Source of the DNA: Bryobacteraceae bacterium
GTDB taxonomy: Bacteria; Acidobacteriota; Terriglobia; Bryobacterales; Bryobacteraceae
Assembly: GCA_026002855.1 (NCBI GenBank)
Contig: BPGD01000001.1
Span: forward strand, 3,604,001 to 3,668,000
Length of the DNA: 64,000 nt
Direction: 5' to 3'
Shown here: positions 25,391-36,745 of the stretch, in pieces
Layout of the letters: every line of letters starts with the position of its first letter
How positions within the stretch are numbered: the stretch's first letter is position 1
Made by a program: the position numbers and the translations under genes
Notes under the pieces: generated by a model
Told to the model about the DNA's origin: nothing
Seen by the model: the letters and a program-made list of their open reading frames with translations, nothing else
The model's database searches: none

Positions 25391-26782
25391 CTACTGGGCG
25401 CCTCGGCTGAGCAGCATGACTTTGAGCGTGTTGAACACGATGTACATGTCAAGCGAAAGCCCGAGATGTTTCAGGTAATACAGGTCATACTCAAGCTTCG
25501 TGATCGTGTCCTGGAGCGTGTCGCCGTACTTGTGGTTGATCTGCGCCCATCCGGTGATGCCCGGCGGGATCGTGTGACGCTGGTCGTAGAAGGGGATCTG
25601 CTCGCGCAGCACCTGTACGAACTCCGGCCGCTCCGGCCGCGGCCCGACGATCGACATCTCCCCTCTGAGCACGTTGAAAAACTGCGGCAACTCGTCCAGG
25701 CGAAGCTTCCGCAGGACGCGCCCGACGGGCGTGACGCGCGGATCGTTCGTGGTGGCCCACACCGCGCCGGAGCGGGCCTCGGCATCCTGATACATCGAGC
25801 GGAACTTCAGCAGCTCAAATACGCGCCCGCCCTGCCCGACGCGGCGCTGGCGGTATATGACAGGTCCCGGCGAGTTCAGCCGCACGGCGAGCGCGATGAT
25901 CGCCATCAGCGGAAGCGTCAGCAGCACGCCAACCAGCGCCATCAGGAAAGAATAAGCGCGTTGCATCGCCAGCTTGCGCGGATTCGGCCCGAGCGTTCCG
26001 GAGAAGATCAGTTGCGAGGGACGCAGCGCGTCCACCGGCACGCGCCACATCACATGTTCGTAGAGAGAGGCCGCGTCCTCCACCGGAACGCCCTTCAACC
26101 GCAACTGAAGAAGCTGCTGGACGGGCATCTGCCCTCGCCGCTCATCCAGCCCCACAACAAGGCGTTCCGGCCGCAGCTTTTCGTACACGGCCAGAATATC
26201 CGACGCAGACCCCAGCCAGCGTCCCAACCCTGGCACTTCCTTTTCGAGCGGCGCCGGGGCCAGATACCCGATCCCCTCCATCGCGAAGTGCGGCCGCTCG
26301 GTCACGGTGCGCGCGATGGTGCGAACCAGCCGGTTGTGTCCAATAAACAGCAGCCGCTGCCGGTGCAGCACGCGGAGAACATAGATGTCGAACAGAATCC
26401 GCCAGCCCGGAAGCACGGCCAACCCGATGAGGCTGCCCGCGATCATCTGCCACCGGGGCAGCGCCAGGGGCGGATACAGATAACTCAGCATCCCCTGGGC
26501 GAGAAACGCCGCCCCGAACACCAGGCAGAACTGCTGCACCAGCCGCAGCCGCGAGTAGACGCGGATCTCCGAGTACAGGTCGTTGAAGTAAACTCCGAGC
26601 GCGATGGCGCCAACGGCGGCCAGCACCTGCGAACTGCCGCCGTCATAGAGCAGATAGATCAGCCAGTCGTCCTCCCCGAGCAGCGGAATCACCGCAAGAT
26701 AACAGGTCGCCGCCAGCAGGATTTCCACTCCCATCAAGGCAAGCAGCGGGACGGGAATGGCGATTTGGAAGAGCCGGATCAT
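25391..26782 (-). CDS. Polyprenyl glycosylphosphotransferase (exopolysaccharide sugar transferase)
   Basis: Inner-membrane enzyme that transfers a sugar-1-phosphate to undecaprenyl phosphate, the first step of exopolysaccharide or O-unit assembly. About four N-terminal helices and a cytoplasmic CoA-binding-like domain ([18 protein letters not shown]) precede the catalytic bacterial sugar-transferase domain: a fifth helix ([20 protein letters not shown]), [63 protein letters not shown] and [15 protein letters not shown]. 463 residues, full length. It resembles the EpsB/PEP-CTERM-associated branch (TIGR03013), but no exosortase is seen here. The tRNA-Gly lies just downstream on the same strand. 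Confidence 0.92.
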
Positions 26783-27682: not shown

Positions 27683-29050
27683 TCAGTCGGCGCCCTGGAG
27701 CCGCCGCCAGGCGCCTTCGTGCCAGTAAAAGATCACGGAGACCTTCCCGAGGAAGTGTGACTCGATTCCGTCGTGATCGAGCTCCGGCAGGGCCTCTCCG
27801 CCGAACGCCTCGTGGTAGCGGCGGATGACGCGCGGGTTCGCGGCCGTGATCATCCAGGAAAACCCTGCCCGGCCGTCGGCCAGCATCTGAAAGAATGCGA
27901 TCTCCAGTCCGCCGGAGAGCGTCTCCGGTCGTGTGTCATAACGGTCACGGAAGGCCAGCAGCCGCACGGCGCCCTGAACCGAGCACAGCGCCGCCCAGCC
28001 TTCCACGCCCGGGCCCGAAAAACGTCCGCGGATCAGGTTGTATGGCCTTGGCCCGTCCGGCGGATCCTCGGGCTGCGGGATGGCGCACCCCATTGCGCCG
28101 AGCGTGGATCGGATTGCGGGCGGAAGCTCAGGAAAATCATCCAGGGACAGACGGCGCATCTGCCGCCAGCCGGTGTTGATGGCCAGTTGCAGGTCGAGCA
28201 GCGCCGGGGCAGCCGGCTTCGCGTTCCCGTAAGACCGCGCTGGACGGAAATCCTCTTCGCCAAGATGCGGGCTGATGGCGCGGGCCCGCTGGATACACGC
28301 CTCTGCCTCGGCCTCCAGACGCGGATCCACCCGTCCGGATGCGTGACGCTGTTGCTGCACCGTACGGAACTCCCGCGCGGCTGCGGTCTGGAGTATCGGG
28401 TTCAACGACCGGCCCAGCAGCTCGCGCGCTTCGGCCTCCAGCGCCGTCCGTCCAGCCATCTGCTCCACGCACCAGGCGGCCAGGGCCTCCACGGCAGGTT
28501 CGAAATCGGGCTGAGCCTCTAACGCGGATTCGAGGAAGCGGCGGTACAGATCCGGATCGTGCGGCTTGACCCACAGCGCGGCGTGCCAGGCGATGCGCGG
28601 GTCGAATGGCGCCCGAGAAACGGCCTCCCGCCAGGCGTCAAGGATCGCGACGTAGCGGTCGCGGCTGAGGTCTCCCGGGGCAAAGCGCGCCGGCGCCCAG
28701 TCCAGGAATTCGGATGCCGGTTCATTGCGGATCAGCCAGAGGACATGAGCCGCGCGCTCCTGAGAGGAGTCTGTGCCGCGCACGCGCCACAGCCAGGCCA
28801 TCAGAAGCGCGCGCCGATTGGGGTCTTGCCCGTCTGCGACCAGTTGTTTGCGGATCCCGCTGACTTCTTCGGGCCGCAGACGGCGAGCCTCTTCCAGCAG
28901 CGACTCACGAAGCGACCGCGGGCGATCCTCGCTTGCCGGCAACGCCTGCCTTGCCGGCGCTGTGGGCCTGACGGGCGTTTGCCTGCCCAGCCAAAGCATC
29001 CAGACGCCGACAATCGCGGCAGATACCAGGGCTGGCAGGGCGCGGTTCAT
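27683..29050 (-). CDS. Hypothetical membrane-anchored protein with helical-repeat body
   Basis: No family recognised. One N-terminal helix (ALPALVSAAIVGVWMLWLGR) anchors a 434-residue exported part. The middle (SRAPFDPRIAWHAALWVKPHDPDLYRRFLESALEAQPDFEPAVEALAAW) has the spacing of TPR-like helical pairs. The C-terminal portion (GRAGFSWMITAANPRVIRRYHEAF ... SVIFYWHEGAWRRLQGAD) looks like a separate alpha/beta domain. Likely a periplasmic scaffold or lineage-specific protein. It ends 14 bases from the convergent cytochrome gene and starts downstream of tRNA-Glu. Confidence 0.7.
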   Translation of the reverse strand: MNRALPALVSAAIVGVWMLWLGRQTPVRPTAPARQALPASEDRPRSLRESLLEEARRLRPEEVSGIRKQLVADGQDPNRRALLMAWLWRVRGTDSSQERAAHVLWLIRNEPASEFLDWAPARFAPGDLSRDRYVAILDAWREAVSRAPFDPRIAWHAALWVKPHDPDLYRRFLESALEAQPDFEPAVEALAAWCVEQMAGRTALEAEARELLGRSLNPILQTAAAREFRTVQQQRHASGRVDPRLEAEAEACIQRARAISPHLGEEDFRPARSYGNAKPAAPALLDLQLAINTGWRQMRRLSLDDFPELPPAIRSTLGAMGCAIPQPEDPPDGPRPYNLIRGRFSGPGVEGWAALCSVQGAVRLLAFRDRYDTRPETLSGGLEIAFFQMLADGRAGFSWMITAANPRVIRRYHEAFGGEALPELDHDGIESHFLGKVSVIFYWHEGAWRRLQGAD

Positions 29051-29170: not shown

Positions 29171-29245
29171 TGGTAGCGCTAACGGGATTCGAACCCGTAT
29201 TTGAGCCTTGAGAGGGCTCCGTCCTAACCCTTAGACGATAGCGCC
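29171..29245 (-). tRNA. tRNA-Glu (anticodon CTC)
   Basis: Minus-strand cloverleaf: acceptor GGCGCTA pairs with TAGCGCT (one G-U at the end), anticodon arm GAGCC-CTCTCAA-GGCTC with anticodon CTC, T arm ACGGGTTCGAATCCCGT, and an encoded CCA. 75 bases in all. Confidence 0.95.
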
Positions 29246-29420
29246 GTACGAGACTCAATATACCAAACCCGGCCCGCTGTTTGCCACTCCCACCGGAACG
29301 AAACGCCGCAATTCTCACCCGGGCAGAACCCCATCCCGCCCCATTCATGCCGCGGCGTGGCGCAGTAGCGCGCGGCGATCTGACAGGTTCGAAAAGCCAG
29401 GTGCATTGGCGTTTCCCATT

Positions 29421-29458
29421 TCAAAAACAGGAAGCCCGGAAGCGAGAAGCTTCCGGGC
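29421..29458 (-). terminator. Rho-independent terminator of the repeat-protein gene
   Basis: A perfect 10-bp stem, GCCCGGAAGC (29434-29443) and GCTTCCGGGC (29449-29458), with a 5-base loop. Read on the minus strand it is followed by TTCCTGTTTTTG, a U-rich tail, about 50 bases after the stop of the repeat gene. Confidence 0.8.
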
Positions 29459-29508
29459 CCTGGAAGTTGAATTGGAACCCGTCTGAAGGAACGGGATCAC
29501 CCAGTCGA

Positions 29509-30039
29509 TCAGTCGAAGCCCAGCGGGTCGGGCGGACGAATCGGACGGATCTCCCGATCGAAGCCCAACGGGTCAGGCGGACGAATCGGACGGATCTCCC
29601 GATCGAAGCCCAGCGGGTCGGGCGGACGAATCGGACGGATCTCCCGATCGAAGCCCAGCGGGTCGGGCGGACGAATCGGACGGATCTCCCGATCGAAGCC
29701 CAGCGGGTCGGGCGGACGAATCGGACGGATCTCCCGATCGAAGCCCAACGGGTCGGGCGGACGAATCGGACGGATCTCCCGATCGAAGCCCAGCGGGTCG
29801 GGCGGACGAATCGGACGGATCTCCCGGTCGAAGCCCAACGGGTCGGGCGGACGAATCGGACGGATCTCCCGATCGAAGCCCAACGGGTCGGGCGGACGAA
29901 TCGGACGGATCTCCCGATCGAAGCCCAGCGGGCTCGACGAAGTAATGGCCACCATGTTGTCAGAGGGGAGAACCGCAGCCATCGCCACGCTCCCCGCTAC
30001 AACACAAACCAGGGCAACCAACAAAGTTGTTGTCCTCAT
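29509..30039 (-). CDS. Secreted protein of nine identical 15-residue repeats (PLGFDREIRPIRPPD)
   Basis: No known family. The product has a signal peptide (MRTTTLLVALVCVVAGSVAM), a short spacer (AAVLPSDNMVAITSSS) and then nine exact copies of PLGFDREIRPIRPPD plus a terminal PLGFD. ATG 30039 has GGAAGG 9 bases upstream, and a clear terminator follows the stop, so it is a complete transcription unit. All three DNA sites that vary between the repeats (Leu CTG/TTG, Pro CCC/CCT, Asp GAT/GAC) are silent in this frame, whereas two of them change the amino acid in the antisense frame; this supports real coding and selection on the peptide. Pro, Arg and Asp dominate. It could be a surface fibre, a polyvalent ligand or a multi-copy peptide precursor. 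Confidence 0.82.
   Translation of the reverse strand: MRTTTLLVALVCVVAGSVAMAAVLPSDNMVAITSSSPLGFDREIRPIRPPDPLGFDREIRPIRPPDPLGFDREIRPIRPPDPLGFDREIRPIRPPDPLGFDREIRPIRPPDPLGFDREIRPIRPPDPLGFDREIRPIRPPDPLGFDREIRPIRPPDPLGFDREIRPIRPPDPLGFD
29521..29932. repeat. 45-bp tandem repeat, nine full copies plus 7 bases
   Basis: Units start at CAGCGGGTCGG or its variants (CAACGGG in copies 2, 6, 8 and 9; one GTCAGG; one CCCGGTCG) and are otherwise identical, arranged head to tail without spacers. The unit length is a multiple of three, so copy-number change keeps the frame. Confidence 0.95.
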
Positions 30040-30563
30040 CACATGCACCTTCCGAAAGACCCTGGCCGCTGGAAAGGACAGTTCCTTCCCTTAGCCGGGC
30101 CTAAGATCTACACCTGAGGCTAATCCTAAGGGTCCCCAATCAGAGCTAGGATATTTCCTATGGTAAACACCGGGTATTATTCCGGGTCTCCAACAGGGGA
30201 ATCACCGAGGCTTTTGTCAGCCGCCTCGGCCGAGAAGTCCGGTCGATTTCCCCGCTTTCGGCAAGGAAGCCGTGTGGCCTGTGGGATTCATGGGGCAAGA
30301 TCGGGGGGCAGGGAGTTGCAGAGATTCCCGGCGAGAAAATATGGGCCTGGAGGCAAGCGGCCTGGAAGGCGGAAGTCGGAATCGCAGGACGACTCTTCAG
30401 CCCCGAATGACGGCCCTCAGATCCGCGGCTGGAGGTCGCCCGTCAGGGCGAGCGTAAGGAGCGGTTGGCGGAATTGAGGGGCGGGTTCAGGCTGTGCGCG
30501 GTGGCTGCCCCTTCTCGCAGACGGTGGCTGCGCAAAGGAAAATGTCAGCCAGCCGGGAGACGC
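30040..30563. other. Intergenic stretch upstream of the repeat gene
   Basis: No gene is supported. The right-hand half carries one copy of a short dispersed repeat (30417-30466). The part near 30110-30190 is AT-richer than its surroundings and contains TAGGATATTTCCTA (30147-30160, five-base inverted arms), which may be a regulatory site or part of the promoter of the repeat gene on the minus strand. Confidence 0.4.
30417..30466 (+). repeat. Short dispersed repeat, copy 1 (inverted relative to 59696-59745)
   Basis: Shares ATCCGC-N2-CTGGAG-N3 and the exact 17-mer GCCCGTCAGGGCGAGCG with the reverse complement of 59696-59745, followed by AAGG, GC and GTT at matching positions. The core GCCC-GTCA-GGGC is itself a small inverted repeat. 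Confidence 0.6.
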
Positions 30564-31451
30564 TCATGCGTCCGGAGAGAGCACTTGCGGCTCTTCGCCG
30601 GTGCGGGCATGATAGCGCGTGTGCCTCGGCATGCCCGGCCATTCGAGCCGCATGTCCTGACAGACTTCGTCGAGCATGTCCAGCGTAGTCTGCCGGCACT
30701 CCAGCGCAAAAGCCGTCAGCAGCAAATTGTCGCAGAGGGCGTTGATGACACGCGGAATCCCCTGGCTTCTGACGTGAATTTCACGCAGCACTTCCGGCGG
30801 GAAGACCTTCTGCTCAGGCATGCCGGCGCGGGCGAGCCGGGTCTGAATATATTCAGCCGTCTCTGCCGCGTTCAGCGGCCGGAGCGTGCAGCGGAGCACG
30901 ATGCGCTGCTTGAGCTGCCGCAGATTGGGCGCTTCCAGCTTGCGGTCGAGTTCGGGCTGGCCGGAAAGGATGATCTGGAGGAGCTTGCCGGCTTTGGGAT
31001 TTTCGAGGTTGGTGAGCAGCCGGATTTCTTCGAGGACCTCCCATTCGAGATTGTGCGCTTCGTCGACGATCAGCACCGTGGTGCGCCCTGCGCCCGCCTC
31101 CTCGAGAAGCATCTGGTTCAGGGCGAACAACACCTCGGTTTTCGACTTGCGGTCGCAGCGCAGGTCGAGGTCGTAGGCGATCATCTCGAAAAACTGGTCT
31201 GCGTTAATGCGGGAGTTGAAGATGTAGGCGAATTCGATGCCCTGGGCGTCCAGCTCATCGCGCAGGCATTCCAGCAGGGTGGTTTTGCCGGTGCCCACTT
31301 CGCCGGTCAGGACGATGAAGCCTTTCCGCGCGTGGACCCCGTAAATCAGGTTTGCCAGCGCTTCTTCGTGCTGGGGGCTGCGGTAGAGAAAAGCCGGATC
31401 GGGGCTGAGATTGAAGGGACTTTCGCGAAATCCAAAAAACGCGTTATACAT
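30564..31451 (-). CDS. ExeA/GspA-like AAA ATPase
   Basis: 295 residues starting MYNAFFGFRESPFNLSPDPA, the hallmark N-terminus of ExeA-like and PEP-CTERM-associated (TIGR03015-like) ATPases. Walker A is LTGEVGTGKTTLL, Walker B is TTVLIVDEAHNLEW, and the sensor region has LLQIILSGQPELDRKL. Family members energise type II secretion, pilus or exopolysaccharide systems, or act in transposition as TniB-like proteins. Here the C-terminal peptidoglycan-binding part of true ExeA is absent. It has AGGAGGAG just before the ATG. Positioned after the csm operon on the same strand with a 130-base gap, but function in CRISPR immunity is not implied. Confidence 0.85.
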   Translation of the reverse strand: MYNAFFGFRESPFNLSPDPAFLYRSPQHEEALANLIYGVHARKGFIVLTGEVGTGKTTLLECLRDELDAQGIEFAYIFNSRINADQFFEMIAYDLDLRCDRKSKTEVLFALNQMLLEEAGAGRTTVLIVDEAHNLEWEVLEEIRLLTNLENPKAGKLLQIILSGQPELDRKLEAPNLRQLKQRIVLRCTLRPLNAAETAEYIQTRLARAGMPEQKVFPPEVLREIHVRSQGIPRVINALCDNLLLTAFALECRQTTLDMLDEVCQDMRLEWPGMPRHTRYHARTGEEPQVLSPDA

Positions 31452-31581: not shown

Positions 31582-32766
31582 TCAGGCGCCGGATCCGGCC
31601 TCGACCATGGACAGCTCCGCCCACCCTGCCAGTGTGGCCGGCTGGTCGTTGAGAAACACGATGCGGCGGGTCTTGGGAAACGGCAATCCGGTGCGGATCT
31701 GTTCGCGGTAGACGGGCAGCAGCCGGAGCAGTTCGTGGTAGGGACCGCTGGCCGTGCCGAGGCTGGCCGATTTTGACAGCAACCCCGTCCCCCAGCCGAA
31801 ACAGAGCAGGCAGGAATTGTTTGTGGTCTGGATCTCGGCCAAGCGCTGTTCGAGCCGCGCCAACGAGTCGGCCACCGCACGCAGCCCCACGGCCTCGGCA
31901 TAGCGGCGGTGCAGGGCGAGCAGCTGGGTTGCGGAGCGGTTGGCGGCCGCCATGGCCCGCTGCCAGTCGCGCGGTTCGCCGTTCCAGCGAAGGGCGCGGC
32001 GCAACTGAGACTGGTGGGCCGGGCTTGCCAGGGAAAGCGTGCCTTCAAAGACCACGCCGGGCATGGCCATTTCGGCGAAATGCGGTGTCGAATCGCCTGG
32101 CCGGCGGCTTTCCACCGCGCCCCGCGGACTCATCTTCCAGCCCAGCTCAAGCCGCCCGCCGCGCTGGACGAGCGTTGCCGTGCGCAGCAGACAGATGCGC
32201 GTTTTGCCGCCGGGCGCCAGCGGCGCCGAGTCCGAAATCATCAGCGCGCGGAGGCGGTCCGCGCCCTTGGCCCCAAGGACGGCTTCTTCGAGAATTTCAG
32301 CGGGGCGACGCGGCGGACGTTCGGATTGCCGCACCGCCTCGAGGGTCTGCTTCCAGTGTTGTTCGGTGGCGGCATCGAGCAGGAGGGCGCGCCGCAGCGC
32401 GCCCTTGATGGCGCTGCCGGGCACGAAGATGCCGCCGCCGGCCGCAGCCGCGAACGTCGGGATGAAGAGATGTTCGGCGGAAGTCCGTGCGTAGTAGGCC
32501 GCCAACGCCGGATGTTCAAACGGGATGCGGCGGCTGGCGTAATTCTGGGCGTAGCCTCCCCAGGAGGCAAAATCCAGCTTGTCGGCCCGCCGGATCTGGT
32601 TGAGGTACGTATCGAGCCGCGGGCTGCGCGCCAGAAGGCGGAAGATGCGCCGCTGGTCGAGCACGTTCACCTGGTCCTTCCAGACCATGTAGTCGATGGG
32701 CGCCAGCCTCTGGCCGTCGCCGGCCAGCAACGGGGTGAGGACGGTGAGGCGGTATTTCGTCGTCAT
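31582..32766 (-). CDS. csm5: Type III-A CRISPR RAMP protein Csm5
   Basis: RAMP-fold subunit (394 residues) that caps the crRNA 3' side of the Csm complex and helps crRNA maturation. The N-terminus MTTKYRLTVLTPLLAGDGQR followed by LAPIDYMVWKDQVNVLDQ is the family's most conserved block; a glycine-rich loop (AAAAGGGIFVPGSAIKGALR) is the RNA-binding RAMP element. The ATG overlaps the csm4 stop as ATGA, implying translational coupling. Last gene of the operon. Confidence 0.92.
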   Translation of the reverse strand: MTTKYRLTVLTPLLAGDGQRLAPIDYMVWKDQVNVLDQRRIFRLLARSPRLDTYLNQIRRADKLDFASWGGYAQNYASRRIPFEHPALAAYYARTSAEHLFIPTFAAAAGGGIFVPGSAIKGALRRALLLDAATEQHWKQTLEAVRQSERPPRRPAEILEEAVLGAKGADRLRALMISDSAPLAPGGKTRICLLRTATLVQRGGRLELGWKMSPRGAVESRRPGDSTPHFAEMAMPGVVFEGTLSLASPAHQSQLRRALRWNGEPRDWQRAMAAANRSATQLLALHRRYAEAVGLRAVADSLARLEQRLAEIQTTNNSCLLCFGWGTGLLSKSASLGTASGPYHELLRLLPVYREQIRTGLPFPKTRRIVFLNDQPATLAGWAELSMVEAGSGA

Positions 32767-33782
32767 GCGTTCCCCGGCCAGGAAATGGGAATTGCCACGG
32801 CGTGCCCGGCGCGCCAGACCGGATGGGGGCAGCCCTCCGGGGCAACGTTGTGCACCGTGCCGCGCGGCGGCTGCGGGCACACCACCACGGAGCCTTCCGC
32901 CAGCGCCCGTGAGGTCCGCTTCAGCAGTCCGCCCCCTTCCTGGCTGCCGATGCGGCCGCTCCGCTTCACCAGCTCATAATGGCCTTCCTCCCAGCGCACG
33001 GCGTCCGTTCCGGAAGGGATCATTAACGACAGCAGCCACCAGGCGCCGCCCGGCGCTGGCGCTGGCCTGGGACCGAAGAGCAGGTCGGGAAGAAGCCCGG
33101 CCTGGAAGTCGACGCTGCGGGCACGCCCGAAGCCGCGTGAGCGCATGCCTCCGATGCCGGTATCTCCGAGAAGCCGGAAGGCCGCCTGGATGCGCGGCGC
33201 CCAGACGGCATAGGCGGTCTGGGTGGCGAATTGTGCGGCGCACCAGAGGCCGGAAAAGGGGGCGAACTGTACACACCCGGCAACGTAGGGCAGCACCTGA
33301 CCGCCGTTCATCCGGTCCACCGCGGCCATGGATCGCACGAGGAACCGGAACGGTCCGGAAGCCGACCGGCTGGCGGCAGGGATCAGGCAGGCGCTGAAGC
33401 CGTCCACTTCCCAGGCGTCTTCGTCCGGTTTTTCTCCTCGCAGCAGTGCGGCTACAACGGTGGAAGGCACGAACCGGGCGCCTTTCCATCGAACTTTCGC
33501 AGCAGCACTGTCAGGCGGCCACAGCCCCTTGGGCGGCGGAACGTAAAGCAGGCTCCGTTGCCAGGGAAAGGCGGAGGTAAAGCGGACGGCCGGTTCGCGC
33601 AGCGGGTCCGCAGTCGCCTCAAGCCAGGCATCCATCCAGCCGAGCTGCCCGAGCGCCAGGGTGACGGCCGAGTACACGGCGTCGCTGTGCAGGATGGCGG
33701 CCGCCTCGCCCAGCGAGCCGGACTCCGGCCCCAGCCGCCACGGTGTCGATGGACGGATGCGGACGAGCAGCGCCGGGTTCAT
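32763..33782 (-). CDS. csm4: Type III-A CRISPR RAMP protein Csm4
   Basis: 339-residue RAMP subunit that binds the 5' handle of the crRNA and contacts Cas10. It begins with ALLVRIRPSTPWRLGPESGS, has an early ILHSDAVYSAVTLALGQLG helix typical of Csm4/Cmr3, and carries a glycine-rich motif GDTGIGGMRSRGFGRAR. The order between csm3 and csm5 agrees with the standard operon. It starts 11 bases after the csm3 stop. Confidence 0.92.
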   Translation of the reverse strand: MNPALLVRIRPSTPWRLGPESGSLGEAAAILHSDAVYSAVTLALGQLGWMDAWLEATADPLREPAVRFTSAFPWQRSLLYVPPPKGLWPPDSAAAKVRWKGARFVPSTVVAALLRGEKPDEDAWEVDGFSACLIPAASRSASGPFRFLVRSMAAVDRMNGGQVLPYVAGCVQFAPFSGLWCAAQFATQTAYAVWAPRIQAAFRLLGDTGIGGMRSRGFGRARSVDFQAGLLPDLLFGPRPAPAPGGAWWLLSLMIPSGTDAVRWEEGHYELVKRSGRIGSQEGGGLLKRTSRALAEGSVVVCPQPPRGTVHNVAPEGCPHPVWRAGHAVAIPISWPGNA

Positions 33783-33793
33783 GGCCGCCCCGT

Positions 33794-34627
33794 TCAGACG
33801 AGCTTCTCCAGAAACTCCGCGCCCGCGGAGGCCTGGAGGTCGGCCGTGGTTTCGGCCTTCTCGACCAGCGTCTGTTCAGCTTCGGCGCCCGCGTAGTAGG
33901 CCTTGTTGCGCCAGGTCACCTTCCAGTTGGCGAAGCGGACGCGCCCGCTGCCGCGCGAGCCGCCGCCGCCGAGCGCATCATCTTCCAACAGGCGCAGGCC
34001 CTGAAGGAAGGTGGCGACCAGCTCGCGGTCTTCGGGGCAAAGGATGTCGAGCACGAAGCGCACGCGGAAGCGCGCGCCGGCGGGCACGCGCTCCAGCGTG
34101 CGGGCGCTGGACTGGGCGGTGATGCGGTCAATCGCGTTCTCGCTCTTGACCTCGGTGAGTTCGTCGTCGAGGTTTTCGCGCATCTGCGGCGTGATCGAGT
34201 CGAGGTCGAGCGGCGCGTCGTAGGCGGTCAGCCGCGCCGGCGTCGCCGCTGAAGGCTCCAGCGGCTCGCCGGCCACCCGCTCCATGCGGCCCGGGTTGCG
34301 GCCGAACAGCAGGCAGATCTCGTCGCCGGGATCCTCGCTTTGATGGATCCGCACTTCCTGCCCGCGGCGGCGAGACAGGTAGACGAGATCCTCCGGGCCG
34401 ACCCGTCCCGAGGCCTGCTCCAGCAGGCTGCGGATGCGGCCCCGCAGGCTGCTGCCGGGCACATAGGGCCGGCCGAAGGCGTCCTTGACCACCGGGTTGT
34501 CGGCGCCGCCGAGATCGAGCGAGCCCTTGCCCGCGCCAATGTGCAGGCCGGTTTCGCAGATCAGCTCTCCGTCAAACAACAGCTTGCCGATCAGGCCGAG
34601 CTTGGTGGATGCGCTGTGGGAACTCAT
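33794..34627 (-). CDS. csm3: Type III-A CRISPR backbone RNase Csm3
   Basis: 277-residue backbone subunit that cuts target RNA at 6-base intervals. The diagnostic stretch is TGLHIGAGKGSLDLGGADNP; Asp43 aligns with the catalytic Asp33 of the Streptococcus thermophilus protein (GAIDSP), so RNase activity should be intact. YVPGSSLRGRIRSLLEQ and the C-terminal glycine loop GGGGSRGSGRVRF complete the RAMP fold. GGAGAG precedes the ATG by about 5 bases. About 50 residues longer than minimal Csm3, mainly at the C-terminus. Confidence 0.95.
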   Translation of the reverse strand: MSSHSASTKLGLIGKLLFDGELICETGLHIGAGKGSLDLGGADNPVVKDAFGRPYVPGSSLRGRIRSLLEQASGRVGPEDLVYLSRRRGQEVRIHQSEDPGDEICLLFGRNPGRMERVAGEPLEPSAATPARLTAYDAPLDLDSITPQMRENLDDELTEVKSENAIDRITAQSSARTLERVPAGARFRVRFVLDILCPEDRELVATFLQGLRLLEDDALGGGGSRGSGRVRFANWKVTWRNKAYYAGAEAEQTLVEKAETTADLQASAGAEFLEKLV

Positions 34628-34651
34628 GGGTCTCTCCGCTGTCTGGCAGTG

Positions 34652-35344
34652 TCATTCGTTGTAGGCGACGATCGCCTCGAACAGGTCGCGGAAGCGCTCG
34701 TAGCCACGGGCGTCGTTCCTGCGCGTCACCTGCAAAAGGAGCTTTTCGAGCGGGTCGAGGCTCCGGAGCTGGTGGCGGGCGATAGTGTAGGCAAGCCGGG
34801 CCCGCAGCATGACGAAGGCGTGCTGGCGCTCGCTTTCGGCGGTGCGGCAGGCGCGGCGCACGGCGCTGAAGAGCCGCCGGAGCTGGCTGCGCGTGCCGGA
34901 GTCCATGTCACGCATGCGCGCGACGATGGCGTGGGCCTGGTTGTCGAGATACAGGCTGTCGGTGATCAGCTTGTCGAGGTCGATCTCGATGGGCCCTTCC
35001 GGACCGCGGCCGCGCTCCGGGCGGGCCGCTTCGCGGGTCTGCGCCTGCGGCCGGGCGCGGCCGTTGCGTTCTCCGCCGGCGCGGCGCTGGGCGCGCTCAG
35101 CTGCCGCGGGCTTCTGTGCGGCCCGCGCGTTTTTCGGCTCCTGCCGGGGCGGAGCAGCGGCCGGAGCCGCTTCCTGCACGGGAGGCGCCTCGGCGGCCTG
35201 CGCGGGCGCTCCTTCCGCCGCCGGGGGCGGTTCGGCCGACGCGGCTTCCGGCTCCGCGGCCGGCACCGGGGCGGGTTCGGCCAAAGTCGTCTCCGCTGCC
35301 GGTTGGGGCTCCTGCGGGTTCTGTTGAGGCTCGAGTTCGTTCAT
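34652..35344 (-). CDS. csm2: Csm2 small subunit with long Pro/Ala-rich N-terminal extension
   Basis: The C-terminal 115 or so residues (IEIDLDKLITDSLYLDNQAH ... LRRLFSAVRRACRT ... LRARLAYTIARHQL ... RFRDLFEAIVAYNE) are the all-helical Csm2 small subunit, which lines the target-RNA groove. The first 115 residues are low-complexity, rich in Pro, Ala, Glu and Gln and then Arg (PAAEPEAASAEPPPAAEGAP), and are absent from usual Csm2 proteins of about 120-150 residues. The start ATG is 3 bases after the cas10 stop; no internal start has a good Shine-Dalgarno. The tail is predicted to be disordered and exposed on the complex. Confidence 0.85.
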   Translation of the reverse strand: MNELEPQQNPQEPQPAAETTLAEPAPVPAAEPEAASAEPPPAAEGAPAQAAEAPPVQEAAPAAAPPRQEPKNARAAQKPAAAERAQRRAGGERNGRARPQAQTREAARPERGRGPEGPIEIDLDKLITDSLYLDNQAHAIVARMRDMDSGTRSQLRRLFSAVRRACRTAESERQHAFVMLRARLAYTIARHQLRSLDPLEKLLLQVTRRNDARGYERFRDLFEAIVAYNE

Positions 35345-35347
35345 CGC

Positions 35348-36745
35348 CTATTCCACCTCTTCCAACGTGCGCGCCCATTCCAGCGCCACCCGGCCAGACG
35401 GCTTCAGTTTCAGTTGCGCCTGCCCGCGGGTGAGAAACGCCGCGAGGACCGTCTGCCGGGCCTTTTCAAATTCCCGGTTGTGTTCCGGGCCGTCGAGCAC
35501 GCGGTTCAGCCGCCGGTGCAGGCGCCACGGCCGCTGTTGCGTCTCCAGCAGCCGCCGCGAACTCCGCGCCGGCAAAACGCGGTCCGTCTCCCGGTAAAAC
35601 GCGCCGAGCTCGCCCAGAAACTGCGGCGAGCAACCGAAGCGGTCCACCATCCGCACCATCACGTCTTTCAGCTCGGCCGCTTCTCCGAGCTGCTTCCAGT
35701 CGAGAATTTTTCCAAAAACCGCAATGCAGTCCTTGCCCGCGCTCTTGGCGGCTTCCAGTTGCCGGCCCGCCTCGCGGTAGACGACCGCCGGCTCAAAGTC
35801 CGCATGCGGCGCCAGCGCAATCCCCATCGAGAGCGTCTTGCCTTCGACCCCCGGAAATTCGCGAAGGAACTCTTCCACCGAGCGGCGGAAGACGCGCTCG
35901 ATCGAGCGCGCGAACGGCAGCAGCGCATCCCAGCTTCCAGCAAGCGCAAACTCATCGCCGCCGGTGTAAAGCACGGTGACCTTGTTGCGGAACTCTTCCA
36001 TCCCGCACAGCACCTGGACCTCGCCGGCGAAAAACTGCTTGTAAAAGACCGAGAGCTGGATGTACTCCTCGACGGACTCCGCCTTCTGCAATCTCGCCTG
36101 GAACTGGTCCGTATCGCCCCGCAGGATGCCCCAGGCCTTGCGGCCGTGCGCCCGCGCCGCCAGCTCTTCGACACTGGCCGGCCAGCCGCCGGGCATCTGG
36201 GCGAAGTGCGTGGCCAGCCAGTGGGCCTCGCCCTCGCGGCGCAGCATGCCGGGCGCTTCCGGGTCCCAGACGGCCGCGGCCGACTCGGGCAGAGCGAGGA
36301 AGAGATCCTCATAAAAGGAGTCGTCGCCGGTGTCGTCGAAGGGTTCGAACAGCCCGTCCGGCTCGAGCGCATTCAGCCCGCGCCATTTGCGGAATCCGGC
36401 ATCGAGGCGCTTGCGGATGTCGCTCCAGGCGCCGAGATTCTCCGTGCTTGACCATGCCAGCCGCAGCTCGTGGCCGGAAAAGCCGGCCAGACGTCGCGTG
36501 GCGTCGACCAGAAATTCGTTGGCCTGGGCGAGGCTCTCTTCCGGAAGCACCGCCAGGAATTGCCCGCCGCCGCAGGAACCCAGCAGCTCCTGCGCCAGCC
36601 CGAGCCGGTCGAGAAGGGCCCGCGGCAGCGCCTCCGTCAGCAGCGACACATAGAGGCAGCGGCCCGCCAGCGCCGCAAAGCCGCCCCGGGCGCTATGGAC
36701 GAAGGGCTCGATCCCCAGGAGTTTCCCCTGCAAAAAGACTTGCAC
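35348..36745 (-). CDS. cas10: Cas10/Csm1 without HD domain, palm motif GGDEF
   Basis: Large subunit of the type III-A effector, normally a target-activated DNase and cyclic-oligoadenylate synthase. This protein has 465 residues, against roughly 750 in well-studied Csm1. It starts directly in the first palm domain (GSCGGGQFLAVLPEE at 57-71 corresponds to the GGGKF-type segment). The second palm has an acidic site at GDTDQF (210-215) and the catalytic loop YTGGDEFALAG with GGDEF at 262-266 instead of GGDD. No HD motif and no Cys4 zinc site are present. The start is GTG 36745 with GAGG 9 bases upstream, and the 700 bases before it contain no HD remnant. First gene of the operon; the C-terminal helical domain (LKPSGRVALEWARTLEEVE) is present. 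Confidence 0.88.
   Translation of the reverse strand: MQVFLQGKLLGIEPFVHSARGGFAALAGRCLYVSLLTEALPRALLDRLGLAQELLGSCGGGQFLAVLPEESLAQANEFLVDATRRLAGFSGHELRLAWSSTENLGAWSDIRKRLDAGFRKWRGLNALEPDGLFEPFDDTGDDSFYEDLFLALPESAAAVWDPEAPGMLRREGEAHWLATHFAQMPGGWPASVEELAARAHGRKAWGILRGDTDQFQARLQKAESVEEYIQLSVFYKQFFAGEVQVLCGMEEFRNKVTVLYTGGDEFALAGSWDALLPFARSIERVFRRSVEEFLREFPGVEGKTLSMGIALAPHADFEPAVVYREAGRQLEAAKSAGKDCIAVFGKILDWKQLGEAAELKDVMVRMVDRFGCSPQFLGELGAFYRETDRVLPARSSRRLLETQQRPWRLHRRLNRVLDGPEHNREFEKARQTVLAAFLTRGQAQLKLKPSGRVALEWARTLEEVE

Follow-up and report, generated by a model that had tools for sequence, protein, structure and literature searches.

An undescribed family of exported tandem-repeat peptides in Bryobacteraceae, possibly multi-copy ligands of a cell-envelope partner

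What might a secreted chain built on nine identical 15-residue units do for the bacterium that encodes it? The question is raised by a gene in a 64,000-nucleotide stretch of a Bryobacteraceae genome (hereafter the window). The nine perfect repeats of the original prediction, at 29509-30039 on the minus strand, are borne out by the ORF, its translation and Tandem Repeats Finder, which reports a period of 45, 9.3 copies and 97% matches at 29513-29932, the sole array in the window. The gene and the elements around it are as follows.

29509..30039 (-): coding sequence of a secreted tandem-repeat protein, 176 aa, with ATG at 30039 (ORF and translation)
29977..30039 (-): signal peptide MRTTTLLVALVCVVAGSVAMA, cleavage at AMA-A predicted by eye
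29932..29976 (-): linker AVLPSDNMVAITSSS, 15 residues, its VLPS largely kept within the genus
29527..29931 (-): nine units of PLGFDREIRPIRPPD, all identical (Tandem Repeats Finder and translation)
29512..29526 (-): truncated tenth unit PLGFD, five residues (translation)
30048..30053 (-): Shine-Dalgarno-like GGAAGG, 8 nt upstream of the ATG (sequence)
30101..30115 (-): second conserved upstream element AGGTGTAGATCTTAG, seen by eye, an AGG-N6/7-CCT-like dyad in relatives
30147..30160 (no strand assigned): palindrome TAGGAAATATCCTA, 107 nt upstream of the ATG
29432..29460 (-): intrinsic terminator, 12-bp stem then T run CCTGTTTTTG (stem search and folding)
30564..31451 (-): AAA ATPase like TIGR03015 (XrtA/PEP-CTERM-associated), directly upstream of the repeat gene (profile match and neighbourhood)

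Read on the minus strand, the ORF has the order MRTTTLLVALVCVVAGSVAMA-AVLPSDNMVAITSSS-(PLGFDREIRPIRPPD)x9-PLGFD-stop. The mature product is not, as had been claimed, nothing but repeat: the 15-residue linker precedes the units, and the five-residue tenth unit ends the chain. The arrays of several relatives likewise finish on the core. The N-terminus (MRTT..VLPS) is common to congeners, and an in-frame GTG at 30048, upstream of the ATG, is a less likely start. The description of a complete transcription unit stands as far as the Shine-Dalgarno sequence, the signal peptide and the terminator (RNA folding energy -32.6 kcal/mol, z -6.6) are concerned, but a consensus search found no sigma-70-type promoter. 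Because the host genome is assembled as one contig of 4.44 Mb, with one such repeat gene, there is no obvious sign that the nine copies result from a collapsed assembly. In an AlphaFold model, the structure prediction that had been proposed as a check, a single N-terminal helix is followed by a disordered remainder (pLDDT 59), though the surface filament suggested earlier is still conceivable. Pfam and NCBIfam scans of the protein gave no family above cut-off, and a PDB sequence search with the repeat peptide gave no match. A Pfam WSD match (E 1.8e-4, 22 bits, below cut-off) covers a 12-residue stretch only and was set aside as composition-driven. Directly behind the terminator lies a tRNA-Glu(CTC) gene at 29171-29245 (-), which an Rfam scan recovered together with one sub-threshold chance match. 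A 455-aa protein with an N-terminal hydrophobic segment and without a Pfam or NCBIfam match is encoded at 27686-29050 (-); among the loci compared, it adjoins the repeat gene in the window's genus only.

At the DNA level the copies vary in three codons (CTG/TTG, GAT/GAC and CCC/CCT), and every variant is synonymous in the minus frame, as the original prediction had stated. In the overlapping plus-strand ORF (29281-30117), residues differ between copies (e.g. I/V and G/R), which identifies the minus frame as the one under selection. The same bias extends to relatives. Across 29 arrays, the codons that differ from copy to copy comprise 187 synonymous and 22 nonsynonymous changes against about 147 nonsynonymous expected, a ratio that is somewhat flattering since arrays were delimited by protein identity and the count is biased against replacements; a single array, L123, read out of frame past an assembly gap, accounts for five of the 22. 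Arrays that accompany 7TM genes elsewhere than at the ATPase give 160 synonymous and 36 nonsynonymous variants, 24 of the latter from the single array L214, with its variable spacers. Silent differences are so numerous that the copies must be old enough to have gained replacements. Selection on the peptide, already argued from the window, is thus strongly supported by sequence comparison well beyond the window's genome. The accompanying idea of recent amplification holds in that copies are homogenised. It is too simple alone, as the copies of many relatives bear many silent differences and their arrays are thus kept for long times. Four bases separate the unit consensus of the window's genome (G000) from that of its sister species (G001); each difference is silent, and in both species all copies carry the species' own base. 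This pattern supports concerted evolution of the array with the peptide held constant. Across greater distances the unit turns over fast. G015 and G142 are 98% identical in the ATPase and 47% in the units, and for G126 and G074 the corresponding values are 90% and 30%.

Orthologues are present in all four of the other species in the window's genus, on the same strand as the ATPase and directly behind it, except for one intervening gene in G003. The sister species, whose record is the sole match in a scan of genome_contigs, has five copies of PLGFDREIRPIRPPD. The unit is PLGFDRAEIRPIPPPD in G004 and PLGFDPAIRPGPPPD in G002 and G003, the G003 array having two interrupting stretches. When 200 Bryobacteraceae genomes were searched with a DNA pattern for PP[DN]PWD, tandem arrays appeared in many, and matches in the control were almost nil. 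In a wider phylum sample, the unit cores gave scattered single matches near the control rate and no arrays. An exported repeat gene occupies 19 of 60 regions behind the ATPase, whilst the rest, three trivial cases apart, hold no tandem repeat. Other units of the family include AISPLPPPDPWGDGL, LTIKVGDPPRPYD, ISPLPSPLPWEEHG, IDPNACTFPWETAM and GGPIPPPDDNGTFALF.

By our tally, the family spans about 60 genomes in 33 genera. Its members are exported peptides of 1-10 tandem units, each of 10-26 residues, mostly proline-rich and never net-cationic; homologues with other repeat numbers, whose search had been proposed, therefore exist, including a single-unit form in G087. The window gene encodes an exported array with homogenised units, preceded about 110 nt before the ATG by the palindrome TMGGAWWWWTCCKA found in most members. 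It is placed in the same family as the G126 gene because ATPase, palindrome, signal peptide, array and core are all common to both. Judged by sequence, it is a member of an undescribed Bryobacteraceae family, on which a literature search found no paper. The family is probably under-annotated, since in draft genomes the arrays are frequently found at the ends of contigs. On the ATPase tree, at least 16 changes of repeat-gene presence are required, compared with 24 for shuffled labels, so the distribution is patchy but not random. In G007 the repeat gene (L057:6238-6567) lies away from the ATPase, and no 7TM gene was detected in that genome; one of its neighbours groups with an OmpA-type lipoprotein of G090.

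The conserved neighbours of the family, namely the ATPase, a 7TM protein and the palindrome, are the main clue to its role. The ATPase scores 295 bits against TIGR03015, below the 324.5 cut-off, and is a conserved neighbour in part of the family. As an obligatory partner it was dropped, since repeat genes are found elsewhere and in G007. About 4 kb from the ATPase, 25394-26782 (-) encodes an EpsB/TIGR03013-type XrtA-associated glycosyltransferase, above cut-off, and two exosortase genes are present elsewhere in the genome. Directly upstream of the ATPase is a type III-A-like csm operon (31585-36745 (-); cas10, csm2, csm3, csm4 and csm5), and csm-like genes are also near the ATPase in G002, G003, G015, G006 and G093. 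At 465 aa the Cas10 is short, with a main match that covers profile positions 479-748 only, and GGDEF replaces GGDD in the window, G002 and G015. There are no CRISPR-like direct repeats in the window between 20 and 50 kb, and no Cas1 in G003, G015 or G006. It may be that the operon is an orphan or re-purposed effector complex.

The palindrome TAGGAAATATCCTA is the sole site with at most one mismatch in the window's genome. Of the 24 loci examined, 17 have its family form, TMGGAWWWWTCCKA, at 94-121 nt upstream of the ATG, and it is the only such genomic site in G000, G001 and G002. Peptide genes away from the ATPase have it in front of them too (e.g. L182 and L199, 14 of 14), and it is absent behind ATPases without a repeat gene, where the best score is 12 of 14. 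Because it travels with the peptide gene at the ATPase and elsewhere and is missing at repeat-less ATPases, it is assigned to the peptide gene, for which it may serve as an operator or a promoter element. A wider regulon was discarded, the site being essentially unique per genome. A DNA site is a better fit than an RNA hairpin, since each half-site varies independently of the other (TCGGA..TCCTA being a common form). In the upstream regions of L014 and L074, a second dyad, AGGGGTAACCCCTTAGTA, occurs about 30 nt past the palindrome; between G015 and G142 this dyad is more conserved than the repeat unit itself.

Neighbourhood comparison further revealed a membrane protein of roughly 230 residues encoded directly downstream of many repeat genes. 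This 7TM gene is present at 11 of 19 repeat loci, and none of the 40 ATPase loci that lack a repeat gene has it (Fisher P 2.7e-7, although related loci are not independent observations), and one further case, in G009, was found afterwards. A profile of the protein matches 99 of the 200 genomes, often far from the ATPase. Forty such non-ATPase places were taken, of which four lay at a contig edge, leaving 36 assessable. A repeat gene stands just in front of the 7TM gene in 21-24 of these (three of the 24 being short and weak), and the new units include LGPWPSPDPFERPVA, IGPLPPPSPWDDNLA and HGPVWPPDDDGNGGNI. In seven of the 12 remaining places, all in genus g55 (L186, L188, L198, L200, L202, L204 and L206), the position of the repeat gene is taken by a hybrid kinase with PAS and receiver domains and a weakly matched HisKA, and the 7TM gene follows 60-105 bp after it. 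These kinase-linked forms make up one clade in the tree, beside the peptide-linked forms of the same genus. The linkage suggests a connection with signalling.

The 7TM model has seven helices (pLDDT 92), with the N-terminus placed outside and the C-terminus inside by the positive-inside rule, applied by eye. Its best structural match is a designed GPCR-like fold (VIA Z 15.8, rmsd 3.8, 211 aligned), and GPCRs and rhodopsins are the best matches overall, many GPCRs giving Z of about 13-15. Foldseek E-values are 0.013 or worse and helical bundles generally reach high Z, so that the likeness is one of fold rather than homology. A PDB sequence search with the profile gave no match. In the window's genus (G000-G004), protein and profile searches found no 7TM gene, and G015 and others likewise carry the peptide without a detectable one. 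The 7TM partner is therefore not obligatory. In the window's genus it may have been lost, replaced, or diverged beyond detection.

The explanation that best accommodates these observations, though we hold it as plausible rather than probable, is an exported multi-copy ligand that is read by a partner in the cell envelope. The polyvalent ligand was among the roles first proposed, and is here the preferred, possible reading of the repeat chain. The exported, disordered peptide would show its functional element, the unit, many times, either strung along a single multivalent chain or released by cutting. For most members of the family, the envelope partner recognising the unit would be the neighbouring 7TM protein, serving either as receptor or as a protector of the immunity type. 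An exported chain, a uniform unit, fast turnover and association with a membrane protein together fit specific recognition, whether of ligand by receptor or of peptide by immunity protein; a unit that is uniform within a genome and re-written between relatives is the pattern expected of it. The ligand reading is favoured because a 7TM paralogue stands beside a sensor kinase. At the sequence level, the support comprises the export signal, the constraint on the unit, homogenisation, fast turnover, the upstream element and the 7TM association. The system-level claim draws on association in relatives, and linked genes are no proof of interaction.

A bolder form of this reading, to which we give a low probability, is a peptide-ligand/7TM-receptor pair in Bryobacteraceae with a layout like that of yeast alpha-factor and its receptor. 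The product of a fungal alpha-type pheromone gene is read by a 7TM receptor. By analogy, an exported tandem-repeat precursor or multivalent ligand with a fast-changing, species-specific unit would have a dedicated GPCR-like 7TM reader, and the window's genus would keep a remnant or re-wired form. To our knowledge, little is known of cell-cell communication in Acidobacteriota, and the peptide together with a 7TM protein without known family is a testable candidate for peptide sensing or immunity in that phylum.

It is also conceivable, if unlikely, that the chain is a multi-copy precursor cut into short free peptides (signals or toxins), in the manner of Kex2-processed proteins or multi-core RiPPs. 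A signal peptide followed by identical tandem units of 10-26 aa, species-specific and in 1-10 copies, would suit such a precursor, and the 7TM partner echoes pheromone systems. However, there is no conserved cut site, dibasic pairs occur in only 2 of 30 units, spacers vary freely, single-unit forms exist (G087), and the part of the neighbours scanned with Pfam and NCBIfam includes no protease or modifying enzyme. The Pro/Arg-rich antimicrobial precursor originally envisaged is not supported by charge either, as 0 of 30 listed units are net positive, the window unit having a net charge of 0. A universal role in ribosome stalling by PPD/PPP was likewise dropped, since the units of G142 and G098 lack PP.

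Rather unlikely, too, is a structural or matrix role, with the protein forming a proline-rich polymer at the surface or in association with exopolysaccharide and the exactness of the unit reflecting assembly. The disordered, proline-rich chain and its XrtA/EPS-type surroundings (the adjoining ATPase, the nearby EpsB-like glycosyltransferase and the two exosortases) would agree with it. Chains as short as one or two units, fast change of units between close relatives, the lack of a C-terminal sorting signal and association with a 7TM protein instead of matrix genes argue against it. If the peptide were instead a bacteriocin and the 7TM protein its immunity factor, their adjacent genes and the fast divergence of both would be explained, but the units are neutral or acidic, the g55 paralogues adjoin a hybrid kinase and the window's genus would be without immunity, which makes this reading improbable. 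A selfish or neutral minisatellite without a protein role is hardly credible, for despite near-identical DNA copies in the window, variation is mostly silent over many arrays and species, the signal peptide and upstream element are conserved, and the silent/replacement ratio contradicts it.

The preferred ligand reading can be set beside several known systems. The window's genome shares with the XrtA/PEP-CTERM exopolysaccharide system a TIGR03015-like ATPase, a TIGR03013/EpsB transferase and exosortases. Unlike PEP-CTERM substrates, which carry a PEP motif, a hydrophobic helix and a basic tail at the C-terminus, the repeat protein ends in PLGFD without such a tail, and its only helix is N-terminal. 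No modifying enzyme of a multi-core RiPP was found among the neighbours scanned with Pfam and NCBIfam. The 7TM model has the seven-helix arrangement of the rhodopsin/GPCR-type fold, but the protein has no significant sequence relationship to that group, the match is one of helical bundles only, and nothing points to retinal or G-protein use; 2 of 23 members match MASE3 sensor domains weakly. Proline-rich exported proteins of unrelated organisms resemble the peptide in export, proline content and short tandem units, and a cell-wall role is not indicated for the window peptide. Kex2-processed repeat proteins are defined by a signal peptide together with three or more tandem units, each at least 8 aa long (PMC7329392), both of which the window protein has, and the fungal examples, including alpha-type pheromone precursors, likewise consist of a signal peptide and then near-identical tandem units (PMC7329392). 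The window unit contains no KR, RR, KK or RK and thus no Kex2-type dibasic site. The present family, known here from its genes, is bacterial, and the 7TM gene that was not detected in the window's genus stands adjacent to the repeat gene in relatives.
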